30,029 nt of DNA, taken from IMG/VR virus record IMGVR_UViG_3300021438_000056, positions 1-30,029 of that record; one strand, 5' to 3'. This DNA is from a virus. Of the stretch, positions 1 to 25,753 are shown one piece after another. The notes under the pieces were generated by a model. It was not told the DNA's origin. It saw nothing but the letters and a program-made list of their open reading frames with translations, and did no database searches. The stretch's first letter is position 1. The number at the start of each line of letters is the position of its first letter. Position numbers and translations under genes: made by a program.

Positions 1-513
1 TCCGGCGCTGCGATCTATCGCTCGGAGACAGCCGAGACAGTGAGAGAGGTAGTCGAGGCGCTGACGGATCTGATGGGCGCGAACCTGAGGGGCGCGGATC
101 TGAGGGGCGCGGATCTGATGGGCGCGGATCTGAGGGGCGCGGACCTGAGCGGCGCGAACCTGAGCCGCGCGGACCTGCGCAGCGCGGACCTGCGCAGCGC
201 GAACCTGAGCCGCGCGGACCTGAGCGACGCGGACCTGAGCGACGCGGACCTGAGCGACGCGGACCTGAGAGGCGCGAACCTGAGCGCAGTCGTCGGAGTT
301 GTTCACGCGTCCGTGGGCTGGCACACCCACGGAGAGCGCGGGCGCACTCTGCTCGGGGTGATGATTGGCGCCGAACTGAGGCTATTCTGCGGCTGTTTTT
401 GTGGCACCGCGGCGGACCTGCGATCTTACATCGCTGCCGGAGAGGAGCGCTATAGACCGTCGCGTCTGAGGGCCCTCGAAATCGTCGAGGAGCTGATCGG
501 GGGCCAGTCATGA
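1..513 (+). CDS. Pentapeptide-repeat protein, 5' end cut by the window edge
   Basis: The frame is open from base 1 with no stop before the repeats. A GTG at 40 is the first candidate start inside the window, but the upstream codons ([13 protein letters not shown]) read naturally into the protein, so I think the true start lies outside. Fourteen consecutive pentapeptides of the A(D/N)LxG type (bases 76-285) should fold as a right-handed quadrilateral beta-helix of about 3.5 coils. A non-repeat C-terminal part of about 75 residues contains a Cys-rich segment (FCGCFCG) and an acidic helical end. Pentapeptide proteins such as Qnr and MfpA mimic DNA and bind gyrase; whether this one does is inference. 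The stop overlaps the next start by ATGA, placing it in the recombination operon. The family call is secure; the function is unknown. Confidence 0.85.
76..285 (+). repeat. 15-base tandem repeat encoding pentapeptides
   Basis: Fourteen 15-base units of the form GGCGCGGACCTGAGN occur in phase with the reading frame. They encode A(D/N)L repeats. The near identity of neighbouring units at the DNA level suggests recent expansion by slippage or unequal recombination. It is a coding repeat, not a CRISPR array. Confidence 0.85.
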
Positions 514-5503: not shown

Positions 5504-8287
5504 TCAAGCGATCTGGTCGGAAATCATCAGGTAACCCGCAGTGCTGAGTGGGTCAGTGCTCCGAGGCCCTGACGAGTCGAGCACATCGAGCTGCCAAGCG
5601 TGCTGCCCGGGCCCGAGCAGAGCCACATCTGCAGTAGCGACGATGCCAACGACGGCGCCGGTGGCCCGGTCGAACGTGAGCACGGCAGGCAGCGCAGGCG
5701 GGTTGGCCGATGAGTACTCCGCGACGTGGCCCGCTCCGAACTCACCCACGCGCAAACGCACGTAGCAGTCGCCGGGGAAGGGGGCGCCGCCAATGAGCTG
5801 GATTGGACCCATGTTGAGCGGCTGCCCAATGCGTCCTTGCACTTTTGCCATAATTTTGCTGGTCCTGATGAGGGTCGCTCGGGTGTGGATCGCGCGGATG
5901 ACGACCGGCGGCGCGAACGACGAGCCGACCGTTGCCGCGGGCAGTCGCCGAAGCTCGCGCGAAGGGGTGCCGAGCGTCAGGCTCTGAGTCGTCCCGAGCG
6001 ATGCGCCTGGGGCAGGGAGGACGCGCAGGATCCTGGTGGGAGCTGTGAGCGTCAGCGTCAGCGGGGCTCCGCCGGCAAACGATGGCCCGGGAATGACCCG
6101 TAGCGCGCGCGTGGGGGCCGACAGGATGAGGACCGCGCCTGTGGTGATGGTTGGCGCTGGGAGCTCACGGCGCGCGCGGAGAGGGGCACCCAGCGTCAGC
6201 GATAGGGGCGTCCCCGGGGCGAGGGTCGGGGCGCTGACCGTCCGACGAATGCGGGCGGGCGCGGAGAGCGCAAGCGACTGCTGAGAGCCGAGGGCGAGAG
6301 CAGCCGCGGGGACGGTCCGCAGGGCGCGCAGCGGTGCCGCAAGGGTCGCAGGCTGAGGGGAGCCCAGAGCTAGCGTTGGCGCCGGCAGACGCCGGAGCGC
6401 CCGGAGCGGGGTGTCGAGTGTGATCGTGCCGCCGCTGCCGCTCAGGGTAGCCGCTGGAAGTGACCGCGTAGCCCTCGTGGGTGCGCCCAGCGCGAGAGAC
6501 TGCGCCGAGCCCAGAGCAAGCGTAGCGGCCGACAGTGACCGCCGCACGCGAGCAGGGGCGGAAAGCGTGACGCTGAGCGGCGTACCGGGAGTCAGCGTCG
6601 GAGCCGACAGAACGCGACCCGCTCGCGAAGGGGCACCGAGCGTGACAGAGTTCCCGCTGCTGGCCAGCGTGGCAACGGGCAGTACGCGCAGCGCCCGCAG
6701 CGGAGCCGATAGCGTGACGCTCAGCGGCGAACCGTTGGCCAGCGTCGCGCTTGACAGACCTCGGCGGATGCGAGCAGGGGCCCCGAGGGTAACAGACTGC
6801 TGACTGCCAGCGGCAAGCGTCGGAGCGGCCAGCTTGCGCGCATGAATCGAGCGCAGGCGGTAGGTGATCGCGGGCCGAACCCATGACCCGACCCACGTGA
6901 GCAGGGGCGGCGCGAACCCCTGGCGCGACATTTTCGCATAGCCGAGATCCGAGAGATGCACGGGCCCGGAGAAGAGCGGGTTTGATGCCCCTGGATTGAT
7001 CCCGAATTCAGGTACCAGGTTCCGCAGGTCGATGACGAGATCTGCTGTGCCCTCGCTCGGAATGCGCGTGTTCAGGTCTCGCAGGTATTGAGATTCAAGC
7101 GGGGTGCTCAGATCGGCAACCTCGTCGAGAGGTAGCGCGTTCGCGAAAACGACTTTGAACCCGTCAGCCTTGGCCAGCGTCGAAATCGAATTCAGCAGGG
7201 AAATTTCTGCTGAAACATTGTGCGTCGACTCCAGGTTGTTATGTGATTCAAAGAACAGGAGAATGTTCGTTTTGCCTGCAACGAACAGCGTCCGAATCTG
7301 CGCGGCATAGTTGTCGAACGCGGCCTGCGTGGTGCCCGAGATGTACTCGGAAAACGTCGCGCTCGGGAAGTCCTGGGGCAGACCAAGTGGGCCTGCCAAG
7401 CGATAGTCGCTAACTCCACCCGTGTCTTTGATGCCGGCAACAAGCGAGTTGCCGACGCAAACGAAGTTGAGCCCGGCGCCGGCAAGCGTCGCAGACGGAA
7501 GGGCGCGGCGAATGCGCGACGGCGCAGCCAGAGCCAGAGACTGGGGTGAGCCATTGGCTAGGGTGGGTGCCGGAAGGGCGCGGCGAATGCGCGACGGCGC
7601 GCCCAGCGTCAGCGATTGGCCCGAAGCGGAGACGGCAAACGAAACGATCCGCGAGATGCCATTGTGGACACCTCCAGCCGTTCCGGCGGTCGCTGTGAAT
7701 CCTGTCGTTGCTGTCGCATAGGTCCGCGCAGCAAAACCCGACGTGGCGTTGTTCCAGTCGAGGATATTGACGTCGAAGGCCCACGTGTAGCCGCCACCAG
7801 TCGGCGCGGGCCACGTTTGCGAAGTCCCCTTCGCGTTGACGCCAAGGAAAAAGACGAGCTCGCTCGCGCTTGGAAGCGTGCCGCTTGCGCACGCAATCGG
7901 GTCAACGTCACCCGTCTGCGATGTCGTCAGGCTCGGGGCAGCATTGTTCAGCCCGGAGTGCTCAGAGCACGCAATCGACGCATAGCTTCCACCCGTCGAG
8001 AACGTGACAACGGCATTTGTGTTCGTGCCGCTTGCTGCGTTGTGCAGATAGTAGACGGCTGTGCAGTTAGTATTTGAAAATCCGTCGTTGAATTTGGCCT
8101 CTGCGGCCAACGTCATAGCCACGCCGCCTAGCGTGACAGACGTGGGTGAGGCTACGTTGTTACCGGACGCCTGCCAGCTGATCGTTAGAAAGAACGTGTT
8201 GCCAGCGCTCCTGGTGCCCGTTACGGTAAACGTGGCACTAGAAACGCTGGCATAGCTCTGCCGCGACCAGGTGTTGACGAGCGACAT
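5504..8287 (-). CDS. Large tail fibre-like protein with SGNH-hydrolase domain between repeat blocks
   Basis: A 927-residue virion protein, last gene of the late operon. Order: a beta-rich N-terminal domain (about 1-222); two copies of a 25-residue repeat with core APSRIRRALPxxTLA (223-270); an SGNH/GDSL-hydrolase-like domain (about 272-468); then about 12 more repeats (485-788); and a C-terminal beta domain from Met813. In the SGNH domain, VGNSL supplies Ser281, ESHNNL an Asn at about 350, and GPVHLSDLGY His444. The usual Asp three residues before that His is replaced by Gly. SGNH enzymes in phage fibres remove acetyl or acyl groups from surface sugars; that use is inferred. The repeats may form a fibrous shaft. 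Internal Met813 could also start a separate 115-residue product. Confidence 0.75.
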   Translation of the reverse strand: MSLVNTWSRQSYASVSSATFTVTGTRSAGNTFFLTISWQASGNNVASPTSVTLGGVAMTLAAEAKFNDGFSNTNCTAVYYLHNAASGTNTNAVVTFSTGGSYASIACSEHSGLNNAAPSLTTSQTGDVDPIACASGTLPSASELVFFLGVNAKGTSQTWPAPTGGGYTWAFDVNILDWNNATSGFAARTYATATTGFTATAGTAGGVHNGISRIVSFAVSASGQSLTLGAPSRIRRALPAPTLANGSPQSLALAAPSRIRRALPSATLAGAGLNFVCVGNSLVAGIKDTGGVSDYRLAGPLGLPQDFPSATFSEYISGTTQAAFDNYAAQIRTLFVAGKTNILLFFESHNNLESTHNVSAEISLLNSISTLAKADGFKVVFANALPLDEVADLSTPLESQYLRDLNTRIPSEGTADLVIDLRNLVPEFGINPGASNPLFSGPVHLSDLGYAKMSRQGFAPPLLTWVGSWVRPAITYRLRSIHARKLAAPTLAAGSQQSVTLGAPARIRRGLSSATLANGSPLSVTLSAPLRALRVLPVATLASSGNSVTLGAPSRAGRVLSAPTLTPGTPLSVTLSAPARVRRSLSAATLALGSAQSLALGAPTRATRSLPAATLSGSGGTITLDTPLRALRRLPAPTLALGSPQPATLAAPLRALRTVPAAALALGSQQSLALSAPARIRRTVSAPTLAPGTPLSLTLGAPLRARRELPAPTITTGAVLILSAPTRALRVIPGPSFAGGAPLTLTLTAPTRILRVLPAPGASLGTTQSLTLGTPSRELRRLPAATVGSSFAPPVVIRAIHTRATLIRTSKIMAKVQGRIGQPLNMGPIQLIGGAPFPGDCYVRLRVGEFGAGHVAEYSSANPPALPAVLTFDRATGAVVGIVATADVALLGPGQHAWQLDVLDSSGPRSTDPLSTAGYLMISDQIA
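5924..6835 (-). repeat. Main block of 25-residue fibre repeats (about 75-base units)
   Basis: About 12 units encode variants of SVTLxAPxRxxRxLPAxTLAxGS. Each unit has a hydrophobic strand, an AP turn, an Arg-rich segment and a second strand. The units diverge at silent and replacement sites, so expansion is not very recent. They are in phase with the reading frame and are coding repeats, not CRISPR. Confidence 0.8.
7478..7621 (-). repeat. Short block of the same fibre repeat upstream of the SGNH domain
   Basis: Two units (residues 223-270) share a near-identical core, GxPSRIRRALP, and belong to the same family as the main block at 5924-6835. The SGNH domain separates the two blocks. Confidence 0.8.
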
Positions 8288-8294
8288 TTGTTGG

Positions 8295-8933
8295 TTAGGT
8301 CAGTGAGAGCCAGCCGTTGGGCGCGGACACTGCAACGTTGTTTCCGTCGGTAGTGAGCGATCCGACCATGAACCCGATGACGGGGCTGGTGCCGGCGGTG
8401 CCGGTGTCTTTGTAGAGCGCCACGAGCTCCGTCGTGGTTCCGGTCGGCACGCTGAGCAGCGTGGTAAGCGGGCCCTTGAACAGGCCGCCGGTTGTCGAGC
8501 GGCCTGACGTCGCCATAGCAACCGGGGTACCAATGACACCCGCGGAAATGTCGGAGTAGAACTGGATCGCGTCGAGCTTGAGAATGCGCCCGCCGCTGGT
8601 CCATGTGCCGTTGCCAGCAACGACGGTGCCGTCCATGTTCGCGAAGCTGAACGTGGTACCGCTCGGGGCGGTGTTGATCGTGAAAAGGCCGTTGATCGCG
8701 GTGTTTCCTAGCGCGCCTTGGCAGTATGCACGGTCCCCAACAGCCATGCCATGAGTGGCCGTCGTGATCACCGATGGGCTTGCGTTCGTGGCGGCCGTGA
8801 CAGCTAGGCCGATGACATCAAGATCAACCACCGCGACCTTAAGCGCCGTGTCGGTGAGCATTGCGATAGCACCAGAGCCGCTCCAAAGGGTTTCGGCGTA
8901 CTTGCCTACAAGAAAAGAGTTCGATGTGGTCAT
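8295..8933 (-). CDS. Beta-rich putative virion protein
   Basis: A 212-residue protein with AGGA six bases before ATG 8933. Residues about 48-115 (SVITTATHGMAVGDRAYCQG, then NTAINGLFTI, TFSFANMDG and GNGTWTSGG) resemble a small beta domain often seen in phage tail or fibre proteins, where a bound property and an inner tube-like repeat are described. The remaining sequence is Gly/Thr-rich strands without charged clusters, typical of structural proteins. Its place directly upstream of the fibre gene suggests that it belongs to the fibre or its attachment. Exact role unknown. Confidence 0.65.
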   Translation of the reverse strand: MTTSNSFLVGKYAETLWSGSGAIAMLTDTALKVAVVDLDVIGLAVTAATNASPSVITTATHGMAVGDRAYCQGALGNTAINGLFTINTAPSGTTFSFANMDGTVVAGNGTWTSGGRILKLDAIQFYSDISAGVIGTPVAMATSGRSTTGGLFKGPLTTLLSVPTGTTTELVALYKDTGTAGTSPVIGFMVGSLTTDGNNVAVSAPNGWLSLT

Positions 8934-9770: not shown

Positions 9771-10223
9771 TCATGGTGGAGGTGAGGGAATCGTGTCGAA
9801 AATGGCGCCCCATCCATCGGGGCGAGTCTGCCGAGACCAGGTCGCGTCGGCGAGGAGCTCAAGGTTCTGGGCGAACAATCGCTCGCGCCGCTCTTGTTCC
9901 GCTTGGCGCCTCTCAATGTGCTCTTGCCGAAGCTCTTGAGCCGCAACGCTTCGCTCGATCCTGGCTACGGATTCACTGATGTGAACCCCGAGCCCGCGAA
10001 CTGACTCGTTGAGCATCGTCAGATTTGCCGAGTGCTCAGCTCCGATGCGCTCGATCTTTGTGAGCACTTCATCAAATAGCCCCTGGATACGCTCGGCGTC
10101 GTCAGGGAAAACGGTGCCGAGCGCAGGCATTCGCCCGAAGCTCTTCGGCGCCTCATGCCCGAGCGGGTCAGTTGGCGGAGGCTCTGTGTCGTGGAGAGGG
10201 AAGTCGTCCTCGGTCTCCCTCAT
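9771..10223 (-). CDS. Hypothetical coiled-coil protein
   Basis: A 150-residue protein with an acidic, Pro-rich N-terminus (1-40) and a long heptad-like helical segment (about residues 43-125) rich in Glu, Arg and Leu. No membrane segment is present. The ATG overlaps the endolysin stop (ATGA at 10223). It could be a structural rod or a lysis accessory; the position in the lysis-like group does not decide this. Confidence 0.6.
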   Translation of the reverse strand: MRETEDDFPLHDTEPPPTDPLGHEAPKSFGRMPALGTVFPDDAERIQGLFDEVLTKIERIGAEHSANLTMLNESVRGLGVHISESVARIERSVAAQELRQEHIERRQAEQERRERLFAQNLELLADATWSRQTRPDGWGAIFDTIPSPPP

Positions 10224-10714
10224 TGTCCAGCTCCCTCGTTGAGCTCTTTCAGCCAGATTTTGGCCTTGGCGACAACGCTTTTCGCGTAGTCGCTCTGGCT
10301 GCCCGTGAAATACTTGAAGCGCCAGCCTACCAGGGCCATCACAAATCCAGTGGCGTCACCGGCCTTCGCGCGCTCAAGTGATTCCGGGTAGGCGCGCTTG
10401 AGGACCCTGAGCCAATCGGCACATCCTGCAGCGGGAGAGCTGTAGGCGCGGAATCTCTGCTTCACGATAACTTTCGCGTCACCGCTTCCCTCTGGGGTGT
10501 CGAGCTCAACAGAGCCAGCGTCGCCACTACCTTTGATGCCGCCCCAGTTCCACGCGCTCGGCCCGCACATGTGCCGCCAGCCCTCGGTTTCGTGCTCACT
10601 CTGGGCAAGCAGGATCGCGGTTTCAAGTTTTGACGGAGGCGCGCCAAAGACCTCGAAAAAAGCCTTCTCAAGCGCCTCGCGGGCTTGTTGCCGGCCGAGG
10701 ATTGGGTAGCTCAT
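10220..10714 (-). CDS. Endolysin-like peptidoglycan hydrolase (lysozyme-like fold)
   Basis: A 164-residue soluble protein. Residues 30-60 (ETAILLAQSEHETEGW, then CGPSAWNWGGIKG) resemble the glutamate-bearing active-site helix and the following N-W/F-G-x-I-K signature of glucosaminidase or lysozyme-like enzymes. RFRAYSSPAAGCADWLRVLKRAYP (88-110) matches the conserved substrate-cleft region of the same superfamily. Glu40, Glu42 or Glu44 is the probable catalytic acid. There is no signal peptide, so release would need a holin or be virion-associated. It overlaps the flanking genes by four bases on both sides. The superfamily call is reasonable; the exact bond cleaved is not determinable. Confidence 0.7.
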   Translation of the reverse strand: MSYPILGRQQAREALEKAFFEVFGAPPSKLETAILLAQSEHETEGWRHMCGPSAWNWGGIKGSGDAGSVELDTPEGSGDAKVIVKQRFRAYSSPAAGCADWLRVLKRAYPESLERAKAGDATGFVMALVGWRFKYFTGSQSDYAKSVVAKAKIWLKELNEGAGQ

Positions 10715-10875: not shown

Positions 10876-12582
10876 TCACGCTCGCGGTGTCACATGGCCG
10901 CGCAAGTGAGGGGCTAGGTCAGCAGGGATGAGTGAGCGACCAGCAACCAGCGCGGTGATGCAAACCTTCGGGCCGCCGGTGCCGGTCGGACGAATCTCAA
11001 GAAGCCCACTTCCTGCCGAAGTTGCCGCGAATTTGCTGGCAAGAATCACCGATTGCGGCTCCTGTGTCAGCGTTGCCTTCACAGTCGGCCCACTGCCCTC
11101 GTAGGGCATAAGCAACTCCACCTCGTGCGTCCCGGAAACGCACCACAAGATCACCCGCACAAGGTAACACTCATCGGTGACCCCTGAGCCTGAGTAGATC
11201 GTGAAGGCCGCTAGGTTGTCTTGCGGGCTGAATGAGCCGGCCGCGCCGGATGCGAATTGAATCGCAGTCACAGTCCCGAAGCGTGTTCCCGAGGCAAATG
11301 CCGTGTCCTGCGTCGGAGTGTGACCGCCGGCATTGAGCATCGTTCCGCTCGGTTGCCAGGGGTTGCCGCCGAGGTCGGCGAACGTGTTTTTCAGGGCCCG
11401 ATCTTCGATTGCGCGCGCCGGGCAATTCCAGGCAGAAAAACCACCGGACTGGTGAATGTCGTCCGGCGTCGCCTTGTCGAATTTCACCTTTTCCCAGTTT
11501 TTTCCGTATAGATTGACCTTCCCGGTAACCTCGCAGCTGCCGGTTCCTGTACACCTAACCGGGATCACTGACGTTGATCCTGTGCTGGCCGCTAGCCAAT
11601 CGCCAACAGTGAGGCGCCCGCCATCATCAACGATGATCCCGTAACCAGTATCCTGCGCAAGAGCAGGGATCCCGGAAAGCTCGCCAATTGAGACCTCAAA
11701 GTTGCGAATGTACCCGAAGCACCGCGACGGTACGGTGATGCCGTCGTGTGTTCTGGGCCACGTTGTCGCGATGGCGCAATTCTCAACGTAAACGTGGTCA
11801 GCGTGCCAGCTAGAATCAATCTCACCGCCGTCGAAAATGAATGCGGGGCCTCCTGTGTTCTGCACACTGAAGTCACAGCCTGAGGAACCGAAAGCCAAAT
11901 TTCTGTCTGTGGCCCTGTTTTTGACGACAATTCCAGCGCCTTGCGCACCGGTGTCAACAATATCAATACGCTCACCCTCGACAAGGATCGCGCCTCCGAA
12001 CGTGGGGTTGTTCTCGATGAGTAGCCCGGAGCCGGTCGAGCTGAACGAGCCCCAGATCGAAAGCCCTTGGAGCTTTGCGTAAATTGCCCCCGTGAGCCTG
12101 AGCCCGCGCGACATTCTGCGCATGGTCAAATTCTCAAGCACCAAATCAAGGGCATTTTGCGCATCGATCCCGGTGATTCCATCGCGGTCAGCGCCGTCGA
12201 GAATCAGATCGCGAATCACATTGATCGCTGCATCATTGTTCGCCCATCCGGATGAGCCAGCGATGCCCAACAGCGTCTGACTGTTGCCAGTCGGCGACAG
12301 CTTGGACATTGCGCCAAAAATTGACTTGTTGAGCGCATTGAGCCCAGAGACACGATAGTCCTTGGCCGATGTGAGTGTTAGGGCGCGCGTCGCATCAAGC
12401 GCCGCTTGAATCGGCGTCGTGTCGTTCGTTGCGTCGTCCGCAGCGGCCCCGGGGATTGCCTGCTGAGTGACCAGTGATGCCGGCACGCGGACCACTGCAC
12501 CGTTCTGGAACCCGAGCAAATGCGAGCCAGAGAGTAGCGAAAGAACCGACGCAAGGCCAGGAATGGGCTTCTTTGTGGTCAT
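10876..12582 (-). CDS. Tailspike with pectate-lyase-like right-handed beta-helix
   Basis: A 568-residue virion protein. A short N-terminal attachment region (1-47) is followed by DDATNDTTPIQAALDA (49-64), the typical entry of phage tailspike or pectate-lyase-3 beta-helices. The central part has many short strands and Gly/Asn turns (about 70-400), then a C-terminal beta-sandwich-like region. Such spikes bind and often cleave capsule or O-antigen; no catalytic residues can be named from sequence alone. The ATG overlaps the upstream gene's stop (ATGA at 12582). Confidence 0.75.
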   Translation of the reverse strand: MTTKKPIPGLASVLSLLSGSHLLGFQNGAVVRVPASLVTQQAIPGAAADDATNDTTPIQAALDATRALTLTSAKDYRVSGLNALNKSIFGAMSKLSPTGNSQTLLGIAGSSGWANNDAAINVIRDLILDGADRDGITGIDAQNALDLVLENLTMRRMSRGLRLTGAIYAKLQGLSIWGSFSSTGSGLLIENNPTFGGAILVEGERIDIVDTGAQGAGIVVKNRATDRNLAFGSSGCDFSVQNTGGPAFIFDGGEIDSSWHADHVYVENCAIATTWPRTHDGITVPSRCFGYIRNFEVSIGELSGIPALAQDTGYGIIVDDGGRLTVGDWLAASTGSTSVIPVRCTGTGSCEVTGKVNLYGKNWEKVKFDKATPDDIHQSGGFSAWNCPARAIEDRALKNTFADLGGNPWQPSGTMLNAGGHTPTQDTAFASGTRFGTVTAIQFASGAAGSFSPQDNLAAFTIYSGSGVTDECYLVRVILWCVSGTHEVELLMPYEGSGPTVKATLTQEPQSVILASKFAATSAGSGLLEIRPTGTGGPKVCITALVAGRSLIPADLAPHLRGHVTPRA

Positions 12583-13703
12583 CGGAAAATCCCAAGGTTG
12601 CTGCTACTCGGCGCCGTTTGGTGCAGAGCAAAAGGCATTTGGCGCTGATGAGTTGCGCCGTTGAAAACCGGCCACACCTCGGGAATCTGGTATGGATCCG
12701 CAAGTCCAAGAGAAACAAGCGGATACCAAGGGGCGCCAACTCCGGCCAATGACCAAAAGAGCTTGGTGGCTGACGGCGACGTCTGGGGCAGCACACCGAA
12801 CAGCAGGTGACCGCATGAAGTGACGTACTTGAAGCCGCCCCAAGCTGCCCCGTGTTTGCCGTTTATGGCACCCATGGCGTCGGTCCAGACGAAACCGTCA
12901 GCAGATGAGTAGAGACACGGTGCACCGCTTTTCGTGCCGGCCACAAAGAAACCTAGCCGCGGAGTCCAGCCGAGTGAGGCAATCGCGTTGCCCGTGCCAG
13001 GTAAAATAACCTCAGTAAATGACTGGCCGTCATTCAGCGAAACGAGGACCGCGCTCGTGCCAGTCGTCAGCACAACGGTTGAGCTAAATGGGGAGCGGGC
13101 GAGCTGTTTGATGCCTGAATAGAATCCGCCACCTGAAGGTGTTGGCAGCGTCCCGCCAGAGACCCACGTCACCCCTCCGTTCGTTGAGCGCGCATAGTGG
13201 CCGGAAAAATCCAGCTCCATGATCCATGTCGCGTAGCTCACGCGCCAGGGCGCCGGGCGCACAGTCGAGGCACTGAACCCGTAGTCACTTGGTAGAGTAA
13301 CCGCCGACCATGAGCCGCCTCCGTTAGTGCTTCGCCAGAGCCTCGAAGCGCTTCCAGATGCTGTGCCGTGACTGAGCAGCACATAGCCAGCGCCAGCCTT
13401 CGCGCGGTAGAAGTTGGGTGCCGTTCCTCCAGGTGTACCCGGGAGAGCAACGCTTGAGGTCCATGTTTCGAGCCCGTCGAACGTCCAGAGCAAGCCATCG
13501 GACACGGTTGTCGCAACAAAGGCGCCAAATTCCGGCTCATAGTCAATGCTCCCTTCGCCCTCCATGTCACGCGCGAGAGTATTGCTTCGGAATGGCACGC
13601 GCCCAGAGTTCCAGGCGATTGCGTCCTGAACCATGTTCAAGAATGCGCCTTTTACCTCAACATTGGCGCCGAAATTTGTGTCGCGAGAAGCCGGGAAACT
13701 CAC
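12579..13703 (-). CDS. Asp-box (BNR-like) beta-propeller tail protein
   Basis: A 374-residue protein right after the baseplate genes. Asp-box-like motifs of the S-x-D/N-x-G-x-x-W type recur: DGLETW (76-81), STNGGGSW (125-132), STNGGVTW (173-180), SLNDGQSF (222-229) and SSADGFVW (266-273). The spacing of about 45 residues fits the blades of a propeller as in sialidases and related sugar-binding proteins. No sialidase catalytic Arg triad can be confirmed. It is probably a receptor-binding or adaptor protein of the tail tip. Confidence 0.7.
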   Translation of the reverse strand: MSFPASRDTNFGANVEVKGAFLNMVQDAIAWNSGRVPFRSNTLARDMEGEGSIDYEPEFGAFVATTVSDGLLWTFDGLETWTSSVALPGTPGGTAPNFYRAKAGAGYVLLSHGTASGSASRLWRSTNGGGSWSAVTLPSDYGFSASTVRPAPWRVSYATWIMELDFSGHYARSTNGGVTWVSGGTLPTPSGGGFYSGIKQLARSPFSSTVVLTTGTSAVLVSLNDGQSFTEVILPGTGNAIASLGWTPRLGFFVAGTKSGAPCLYSSADGFVWTDAMGAINGKHGAAWGGFKYVTSCGHLLFGVLPQTSPSATKLFWSLAGVGAPWYPLVSLGLADPYQIPEVWPVFNGATHQRQMPFALHQTAPSSSNLGIFR

Positions 13704-23863: not shown

Positions 23864-25753
23864 TTACACTCCAGTGCACTTGGCGATACCGCGCCAATCG
23901 GAAACGCCAGCGGCGAAGTCGTGCGCAACGCGCATGGACAGGCCCCCGGAACGGAAGTCAGTTTCTGTCGTGATGATCGGAGAGGTTGCGCCACGAAGGC
24001 GGGCCACCATGATCGTCCCGCGCGAAGCGGGGACCATCAGGAAGAACTCGGGGCCGGTGATGCGCGCCGAGCTGATAATCCTATAACGCCCGCGCCACTG
24101 CATCGCGTCCGATGCCTTGGTTGCCACGATCACCCCATTGGGGTTGATGTCACGCTCTGCGGCGTAGCGCAGATCTGCGCCGCAAATGAAGAACTCAGCG
24201 GCGAGATCCAGAGTGTTTCCGGCTGTGCCCTTTTGCTTGCGCACTACCGCGTCGAGCAGCTGAAGACTACCGCCAGCCGCTCCCGAGTAGACCCCAGTGT
24301 TGAGGTTGGAGTGTGTCGCATGGAACAGCGCGTTGCCGTCATTCATCGTGGGGCCGTTGCCGGCAAGCAACGCGAAAACCATGTCGCCCTCGCGGCGCTT
24401 AGCGGACGCACCGAAGCTGCCAACGACAGCATCAAACGCCCCGAGATCGTCATTGATGAGCGCTTGGCGGGTCAGCTTCACGATCAAGCCGTTGCTGGTG
24501 AGCGTGATCGCTTCCTTGTATTCAAGAATGGTTGATTCATCCGGGCCAGCGCCTTCAACAAAAGGCTTCGTCGTGGGGAGAGATCCCAGCGAGATAAGGC
24601 TCTGCGGCTTGAAGTCGTCGACCTCAATCGCCTTTACCATCTGTTCCCAGTCGGCCGGCTCTTCTCCATAGCCGTCCATAAGCATCTTCCCGCCGGCCTG
24701 CGCCAGGATGTAAGGGAAGTCGCTTGTGCTGTTCGCGCGAGTCGAAACAACACCGTAGAGCTCACCTGGCGAGAATCCGCGCCACTTGATGCCGCCAACC
24801 TCTGCAACCTGCTGCATCAGAGAGAGACCGCGCATTTCGCGCGCGTCTTCCGAGAGCGCTCCTTTGCCTTTGAGACGATGCGTCAGGGCCTCGACAGCCA
24901 AAGAGCGCCGCTTTTCCTGGAGATCTGCGCCGCTCGTCACGGATGCAGAGGGAGCAGCGATGGCCGGAGCGGCCTCAACGTGTCGACCTTTGAGCACCTC
25001 GTTGAGAACTCGCTCACGAGCCTGCGTGATGTTGGATCCGCTGTCCACGAGCTCGCCTGCGAGAGCCTCCGGGAGCCCGGCAGAGCGAACCAAACCGGTC
25101 ACCTCTGCAATTCGCTCTCGCTCCGCCTTTGCGGCGCGCCGCTCGGCTGCCGCCAAATCCACACTAGGCGCACCAGCGGGCGCCTGCTTGATCTCATCTT
25201 CGTCCATTTCGATTTCCTTATCGTGTTCGTCTGCCCTGAATCCCGCCCCGATATCTGCCGGAATCGGCGCGATCGAGACCTCGAACGGCTGCCACCTGGT
25301 GACCAGCACCACGGGAAACCCGTCAATTTCCTGCCCCGTCTTCTTTGCGCTCTTGACCGAATATCCGAACGAAGCGCCCCCCACGATTCCACGGTCAACC
25401 TTGCCAAGCGAAGCGAGTGAGCGCTCGTCGGTATCAAAGCGCACATCAACAAAACCGCTCTCCCCCTGCATTCTGGCCGTTCCCTCCACGGTGACTCCGA
25501 TTACATCCAGGGAGTTCCGGATCTCGTGAGAGTCGAGAAGTGGCGCCTTTGAGTTGAACCTTTCCAGGTCAACGCCTCGCGCTTCTAGCTTCTCCCAGTA
25601 CGGCCCGAGACCAGGAGCCCAGCGCAGGACCGCGGCGCCAGCGGCAAACTCCACGGTGCGCACATTGGTTTCAGCTGCCGGCTCTTCTCCAGAAGATGCC
25701 GCAGGAACAGCGAAAAGCGCCGCCCTATGCTGGGTTTGCTTGAGTTTTGCCAT
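23864..25753 (-). CDS. Prohead protease-major capsid protein fusion
   Basis: A 629-residue fusion. The N-terminal protease (about 1-190, HK97/S78-type) shows LLDSHE (His76), GGASFGYSV (Ser128) and WQPFEVSIAPIPAD (154-167, Glu158). A charged helical linker (about 197-262, Arg/Glu/Ala-rich) may act as scaffold. The major capsid part (about 280-629) has Mu gpT-like features: KGKGALSEDAREMRGLSLM, a spine helix ITQARERVLNEVLKG earlier, TLTSNGLIVKLTRQALINDDLGAFD and C-terminal MVPASRGTIMVARLRG. The protease presumably cuts itself off during maturation. The start overlaps the portal end by 29 bases with no clear RBS. Confidence 0.9.
   Translation of the reverse strand: MAKLKQTQHRAALFAVPAASSGEEPAAETNVRTVEFAAGAAVLRWAPGLGPYWEKLEARGVDLERFNSKAPLLDSHEIRNSLDVIGVTVEGTARMQGESGFVDVRFDTDERSLASLGKVDRGIVGGASFGYSVKSAKKTGQEIDGFPVVLVTRWQPFEVSIAPIPADIGAGFRADEHDKEIEMDEDEIKQAPAGAPSVDLAAAERRAAKAERERIAEVTGLVRSAGLPEALAGELVDSGSNITQARERVLNEVLKGRHVEAAPAIAAPSASVTSGADLQEKRRSLAVEALTHRLKGKGALSEDAREMRGLSLMQQVAEVGGIKWRGFSPGELYGVVSTRANSTSDFPYILAQAGGKMLMDGYGEEPADWEQMVKAIEVDDFKPQSLISLGSLPTTKPFVEGAGPDESTILEYKEAITLTSNGLIVKLTRQALINDDLGAFDAVVGSFGASAKRREGDMVFALLAGNGPTMNDGNALFHATHSNLNTGVYSGAAGGSLQLLDAVVRKQKGTAGNTLDLAAEFFICGADLRYAAERDINPNGVIVATKASDAMQWRGRYRIISSARITGPEFFLMVPASRGTIMVARLRGATSPIITTETDFRSGGLSMRVAHDFAAGVSDWRGIAKCTGV

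Follow-up and report, generated by a model that had tools for sequence, protein, structure and literature searches.

We identified P0001, a protein of 927 residues encoded in the virus record IMGVR_UViG_3300021438_000056 (30029 bases, the whole of which is the window analysed here), as a candidate receptor-binding or tail-accessory protein of the virion, similar in type to a tail fibre or spike, in which an SGNH esterase with a catalytic dyad would be carried on a cationic repeat stalk. Taking all lines of evidence jointly, we give this reading a probability of about one in two. The gene is a single open frame on the minus strand, on which the domain matches also lie, and the plus strand across positions 5504-8287 is not open. 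Its parts are the following.

5504..8287, minus strand: whole P0001 gene, 927 aa
7619..8287, minus strand: N-terminal beta-rich domain, aa 1-223 (matches phrog_553, minor tail protein, at E 6.5e-10 when searched by itself)
7472..7618, minus strand: two upstream 25-residue units, aa 224-272 (matched by the profile of the 12 downstream units)
6872..7471, minus strand: SGNH/GDSL hydrolase domain, aa 273-472 (PF13472, four-block alignment, hhalign)
6800..6835, minus strand: half repeat unit after the SGNH domain, aa 485-496 (weak profile match)
5912..6799, minus strand: twelve 25-residue units, aa 497-792, Arg-rich
5507..5911, minus strand: C-terminal domain, aa 793-927 (Ig-like He_PIG, E 0.0015, under the curated cut-off)

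The late genes of the record are encoded on the minus strand and comprise terminase, portal, a head protein fused with a protease, sheath, tail tube, tape measure, hub proteins, Gp46-like and Baseplate_J wedge proteins, and Gp48; judged by this gene content, the phage is a Mu-like, contractile-tailed myophage. Since the nearest relatives of its baseplate J protein are those of Bordetella phages (39%), a host among the Pseudomonadota is likely. Past Gp48 the order is a BNR/propeller-like gene, a tail-fibre-like gene, a lysis gene, small genes, the gene of a 212-aa protein and finally P0001, which is thus placed past the lysis gene and is not adjacent to the baseplate genes. The early genes (exonuclease VIII and Erf-like recombination proteins) are on the plus strand and head toward P0001. 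Three of the neighbours on the P0001 side are listed here.

10876-12582, minus strand: tail-fibre-like protein (weak phrog_4818 match)
10220-10714, minus strand: glucosaminidase-type lysis gene
8295..8933, minus strand: 212-aa structural-type protein (phrog_644, E 3.6e-8; phrog_584, tail, E 5.7e-5)

The last of these lies upstream of P0001 with a gap of 7 bases, and its product is a probable partner of P0001. Elsewhere in the record, a 374-aa protein that adjoins the baseplate genes (12579-13703, minus strand) has weak BNR/Sortilin and F510_1955 glycosylhydrolase-like matches, and is possibly a propeller adhesin or an enzyme. The major head protein (23864-25753, minus strand) is apparently fused with its own maturation protease (phrog_4523, E 1.2e-127), and the record starts with a pentapeptide-repeat protein (40-513, plus strand; PF00805, E 1.5e-27).

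Residues 17-202 of the N-terminal domain align to positions 129-300 of the PHROG 553 profile, a likeness to a minor tail protein that covers only the N-terminal fifth of P0001. The same domain has weak tblastn matches, at E 3-10, among the minor tail proteins of mycobacteriophages. P0001 is probably, as far as these matches tell, a large tail-associated protein. At the other end of the molecule, the stretch past the last repeat (aa 793-813; 5849-5911, minus strand), VVIRAIHTRATL, resembles by eye the segment YRLRSIHARKL that follows the SGNH domain; a degenerate capping unit at both exits is possible.

The repeat has 14 full units, and the 2 before and about 12 after the SGNH domain that the first-pass annotation had reported were counted as 2 (aa 224-272) and 12 (aa 497-792); the additional half-unit (aa 485-496) corresponds to unit positions 13-25 and, with a profile E of about 2, is suggestive only. 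The unit consensus is x-S-L-T-L-x-A-P-x-R-x-x-R-x-L-P-A-P-T-L-A-x-G-x-x. It contains the core AP-x-R-x-x-R-x-LP as previously described, within which the strictly invariant residues are only P8, R10 and R13; together with L5 these are identical in 14/14 units. Autocorrelation at lag 25 reaches 1.27, against a maximum of 0.12 at any lag from 10 to 60 in 1000 shuffles. A profile built from the 12 downstream units only gives the upstream units 42.7 and 26.6 bits, and the highest score among 1000 composition-matched shuffles is 10.7 bits, so that one repeat family does stand on both sides of the SGNH-type domain, as had been proposed. In the array (segment 473-496 plus the 12 units), 33 Arg stand against 1 Lys and 3 acidic residues; its pI is 12.0, and it is rich in Pro and Ala and poor in aromatics. 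Where the amino acid is equal between units, 33% of the codons are identical, and codon usage alone would predict 32%. Silent sites have thus been randomised while the protein pattern, with its four invariant residues, stayed, which marks the repeat as old and under selection at the protein level and not as a product of recent slippage.

The sole clear exception to this randomisation is the upstream pair. Between its two units 12 of 15 codons are the same (p 2e-4, the smallest value among 91 unit pairs), whereas all other pairs share codons near the codon-usage expectation, and the two units look like the outcome of a recent duplication. By the same codon comparison, there was perhaps one unit ahead of the enzyme before that event. 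This bears on the earlier suggestion that an enzyme had been inserted into a fibrous shaft: repeats do flank the SGNH domain, but a long shaft existing beforehand is not favoured by the recent origin of the upstream pair. Moreover, in the tables of unit similarity the units flanking the SGNH domain are not specially alike across it, and insertion into a long pre-existing shaft is for this reason possible and not demonstrated.

The middle domain, which is acidic (pI 4.8), aligns over positions 1-177 of 178 of PF13472 with E 1.1e-4 and 23.2 bits when taken alone, and with E 0.0022 and 18.9 bits within whole P0001, in both cases under the Pfam cut-off of 32.9 bits. The proven deacetylase gp63.1 of phage G7C, as a whole protein, scores 15.6 bits against the same profile and is recognised by PF00657 instead. 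In an hhalign comparison the domain reached 21.8, against a maximum of 19.5 in 60 shuffles, which is modest support. A MAFFT alignment of the domain with TesA and three SGNH proteins from phage records places Ser281, Gly318, Asn350 and His444 in register with the SGNH blocks.

7445..7447, minus strand: block I Ser281 (GNSL)
7334..7336, minus strand: block II Gly318 (SGTT)
7238..7240, minus strand: block III Asn350 (SHNN; Ser348 replaces the usual first G of GxND)
6956..6967, minus strand: block V Gly441-Pro-Val-His444, replacing D-x-x-H (His444 at 6956-6958)

An Asp three residues before the block V His is usual in SGNH hydrolases, though not obligatory. P0001 has Gly441 at this position, and the alignment thereby bears out both parts of the first-pass annotation: the block I Ser and the block V His are present, and the Asp is replaced by Gly. 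SGNH enzymes that lack this Asp do exist: many CE2 enzymes and a Streptomyces scabies esterase orient the His through main-chain carbonyls, and CE20 enzymes of the SGNH type do so with water (PMC9487903, PMC12313940). By analogy with these precedents, the Ser-His pair that had been suggested is plausible as a Ser281-His444 dyad.

Structure prediction added little. The AlphaFold2 model of the SGNH domain, made without relatives, has a pLDDT of 41.6, too low to use, and its Foldseek matches, none of them to an SGNH protein, are meaningless. A block of four repeat units, also modelled without relatives, gave no confident fold (pLDDT 46.2), and Foldseek with this model returned nothing usable. In the repeat model each unit of 25 residues contains about three short strands, which at this confidence is only a lead; such strands would suit a solenoid. 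Given the low confidence of both models, the fold of the shaft, its trimerisation and catalysis are inferred.

How might such a protein work? The N-terminal domain would tie P0001 to the virion, and the repeats would form a long stalk with a strong positive charge, in contact with the acidic envelope of the host. Part-way along this stalk, the SGNH domain would act as an esterase taking O-acetyl groups off the host surface polysaccharide, with catalysis through the Ser281-His444 dyad, in which His444 would be oriented by a carbonyl of the main chain or by water in the place of Asp. The C-terminal domain would add binding. We favour this adsorption esterase because the gene is part of a contractile phage's late tail operon and encodes a phrog_553 N-terminal domain; because the SGNH profile matches, above the score of gp63.1, and the four blocks are in place; and because phage fibres and spikes with SGNH domains deacetylate, SGNH enzymes with a dyad are known and the array is Arg-rich. 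We counted against it the sub-cut-off PF13472 score, the low pLDDT of the models and the lack of a predicted fibre fold for the repeat. The replaced triad Asp and the replaced first Gly of GxND would also fit an inactive domain, and the position of the gene past the lysis gene, away from the baseplate genes, counts against this reading as well. A more elaborate version, which we regard as unlikely, is that the repeat has an undescribed fold, such as a beta-solenoid or trimeric beta-prism, whose two stacked ladders of Arg bind acidic polymers of the surface and which holds the Asp-less esterase at mid-shaft, so that binding and deacetylation alternate along the glycan.

Other explanations start from the same features. 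The SGNH domain could be a pseudo-enzyme for binding only, which retains the fold and grips a surface sugar without cutting it, with the repeats merely spacing binding domains. The exchanges at Gly441 and Ser348 and the low profile score would agree with this, but none of Ser, Gly, Asn and His has been lost, although a non-catalytic domain could do without them, and lack of the Asp does not abolish activity in the CE2 and S. scabies esterases (PMC9487903, PMC12313940). We consider lost activity an unlikely alternative. Far less likely still, in our view, is a false SGNH call, with another alpha/beta fold in the middle domain. The sub-threshold Pfam score and the model, with its non-SGNH Foldseek matches, leave room for such an error, and a PDB sequence search with the domain matched no SGNH enzyme; yet the Pfam alignment is full-length, the four motifs are in register and the score exceeds that of shuffles.

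The repeats, for their part, could be extended Arg/Pro/Ala-rich linkers or tethers that bind polyanions, in a monomer that might just as well decorate the head or serve as some other accessory protein of the virion. The use of Arg throughout instead of Lys, the pI of 12, the abundance of Pro and Ala with few aromatics, the lack of a confident fold, the gene position past the lysis gene and the Ig-like hint at the C-terminus would all agree with this. A loose linker, however, is hard to reconcile with the strict 25-residue period, the invariant L5, P8, R10 and R13 and the saturated synonymous sites, which point to a constrained fold, and both the N-terminal domain and the neighbouring 212-aa protein match tail families. 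On these grounds we hold this explanation to be unlikely too, and keep the tail-associated esterase as our preferred reading.

Searches with tblastn, run against phages with several E limits and against plasmids, gave no relatives of P0001 or of its parts, and scans of IMG/VR viral and GTDB genome contigs for its peptide patterns and for the DNA patterns of the repeat gave none either; the few matches were checked and are due to chance. A weak match to NatCom_3357 was rejected as a relative, as it sits in an unrelated protein. Relatives of the phage were not found in viral contigs through baseplate J or terminase, nor by megablast of the late region. The baseplate J gene has its best match in Bordetella phage PBb001, where P0001 is not encoded. 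Between 16836 and 20623 of PBb001, hypothetical proteins or nothing are annotated on the plus strand, and longer minus-strand frames look real; by eye they include a 566-aa SMC/AAA-like ATPase, a 364-aa RecT-like and a 330-aa exonuclease-like protein. The first-pass annotation did not recognise the repeat core from known fibre folds, and profile and sequence searches agree in giving the repeat no significant Pfam, PHROG, NCBIfam or PDB match. Because the pattern scans depend on peptides that are nearly exact, or on set codon patterns, and overlook distant relatives, the absence of relatives means that the protein and its parts are rare or diverged, not that they are unique.

An SGNH deacetylase domain in phage fibres and spikes, also in mid-chain, is already known. 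The tailspike gp63.1 of Escherichia phage G7C deacetylates O-polysaccharide (PMC10743462) and, like P0001, carries its SGNH domain mid-protein (aa 270-485 of 851) with domains on both sides; unlike P0001, it has the Pfam domains Tail_spike_N, G7C_GBD and G7C_C, a D-x-x-H motif and no 25-residue repeat. In Pectobacterium phage Possum, the long fibre gp66 O-deacetylates host polysaccharide and likewise has a central SGNH domain, whereas the phage is N4-like and the parts of the report consulted describe no such repeat (PMC9569702). Aristophanes gp41 is a further SGNH fibre or spike that deacetylates host polysaccharide (PMC8471582). SGNH receptor-binding proteins of Klebsiella prophages, which are tail fibres, have esterase activity and cleave pNPA (PMC13123978), but their SGNH domain is part of a C-terminal brush-like architecture. 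The CE2 and S. scabies esterases are SGNH enzymes that work without the block V Asp, which P0001 lacks as well, and differ in being cellular enzymes (PMC9487903, PMC12313940). What is new in P0001 is the Arg-rich 25-residue repeat, found nowhere else within searches of limited sensitivity; at the level of sequence, this repeat and the missing Asp set it apart from the established SGNH fibres and spikes. Since phage fibres and spikes bearing a deacetylase are established in principle, the surprise is moderate. If our reading is true, a repeat class with a strongly cationic surface would join the building blocks of phage adsorption proteins, along with a phage SGNH esterase that may function without its Asp.
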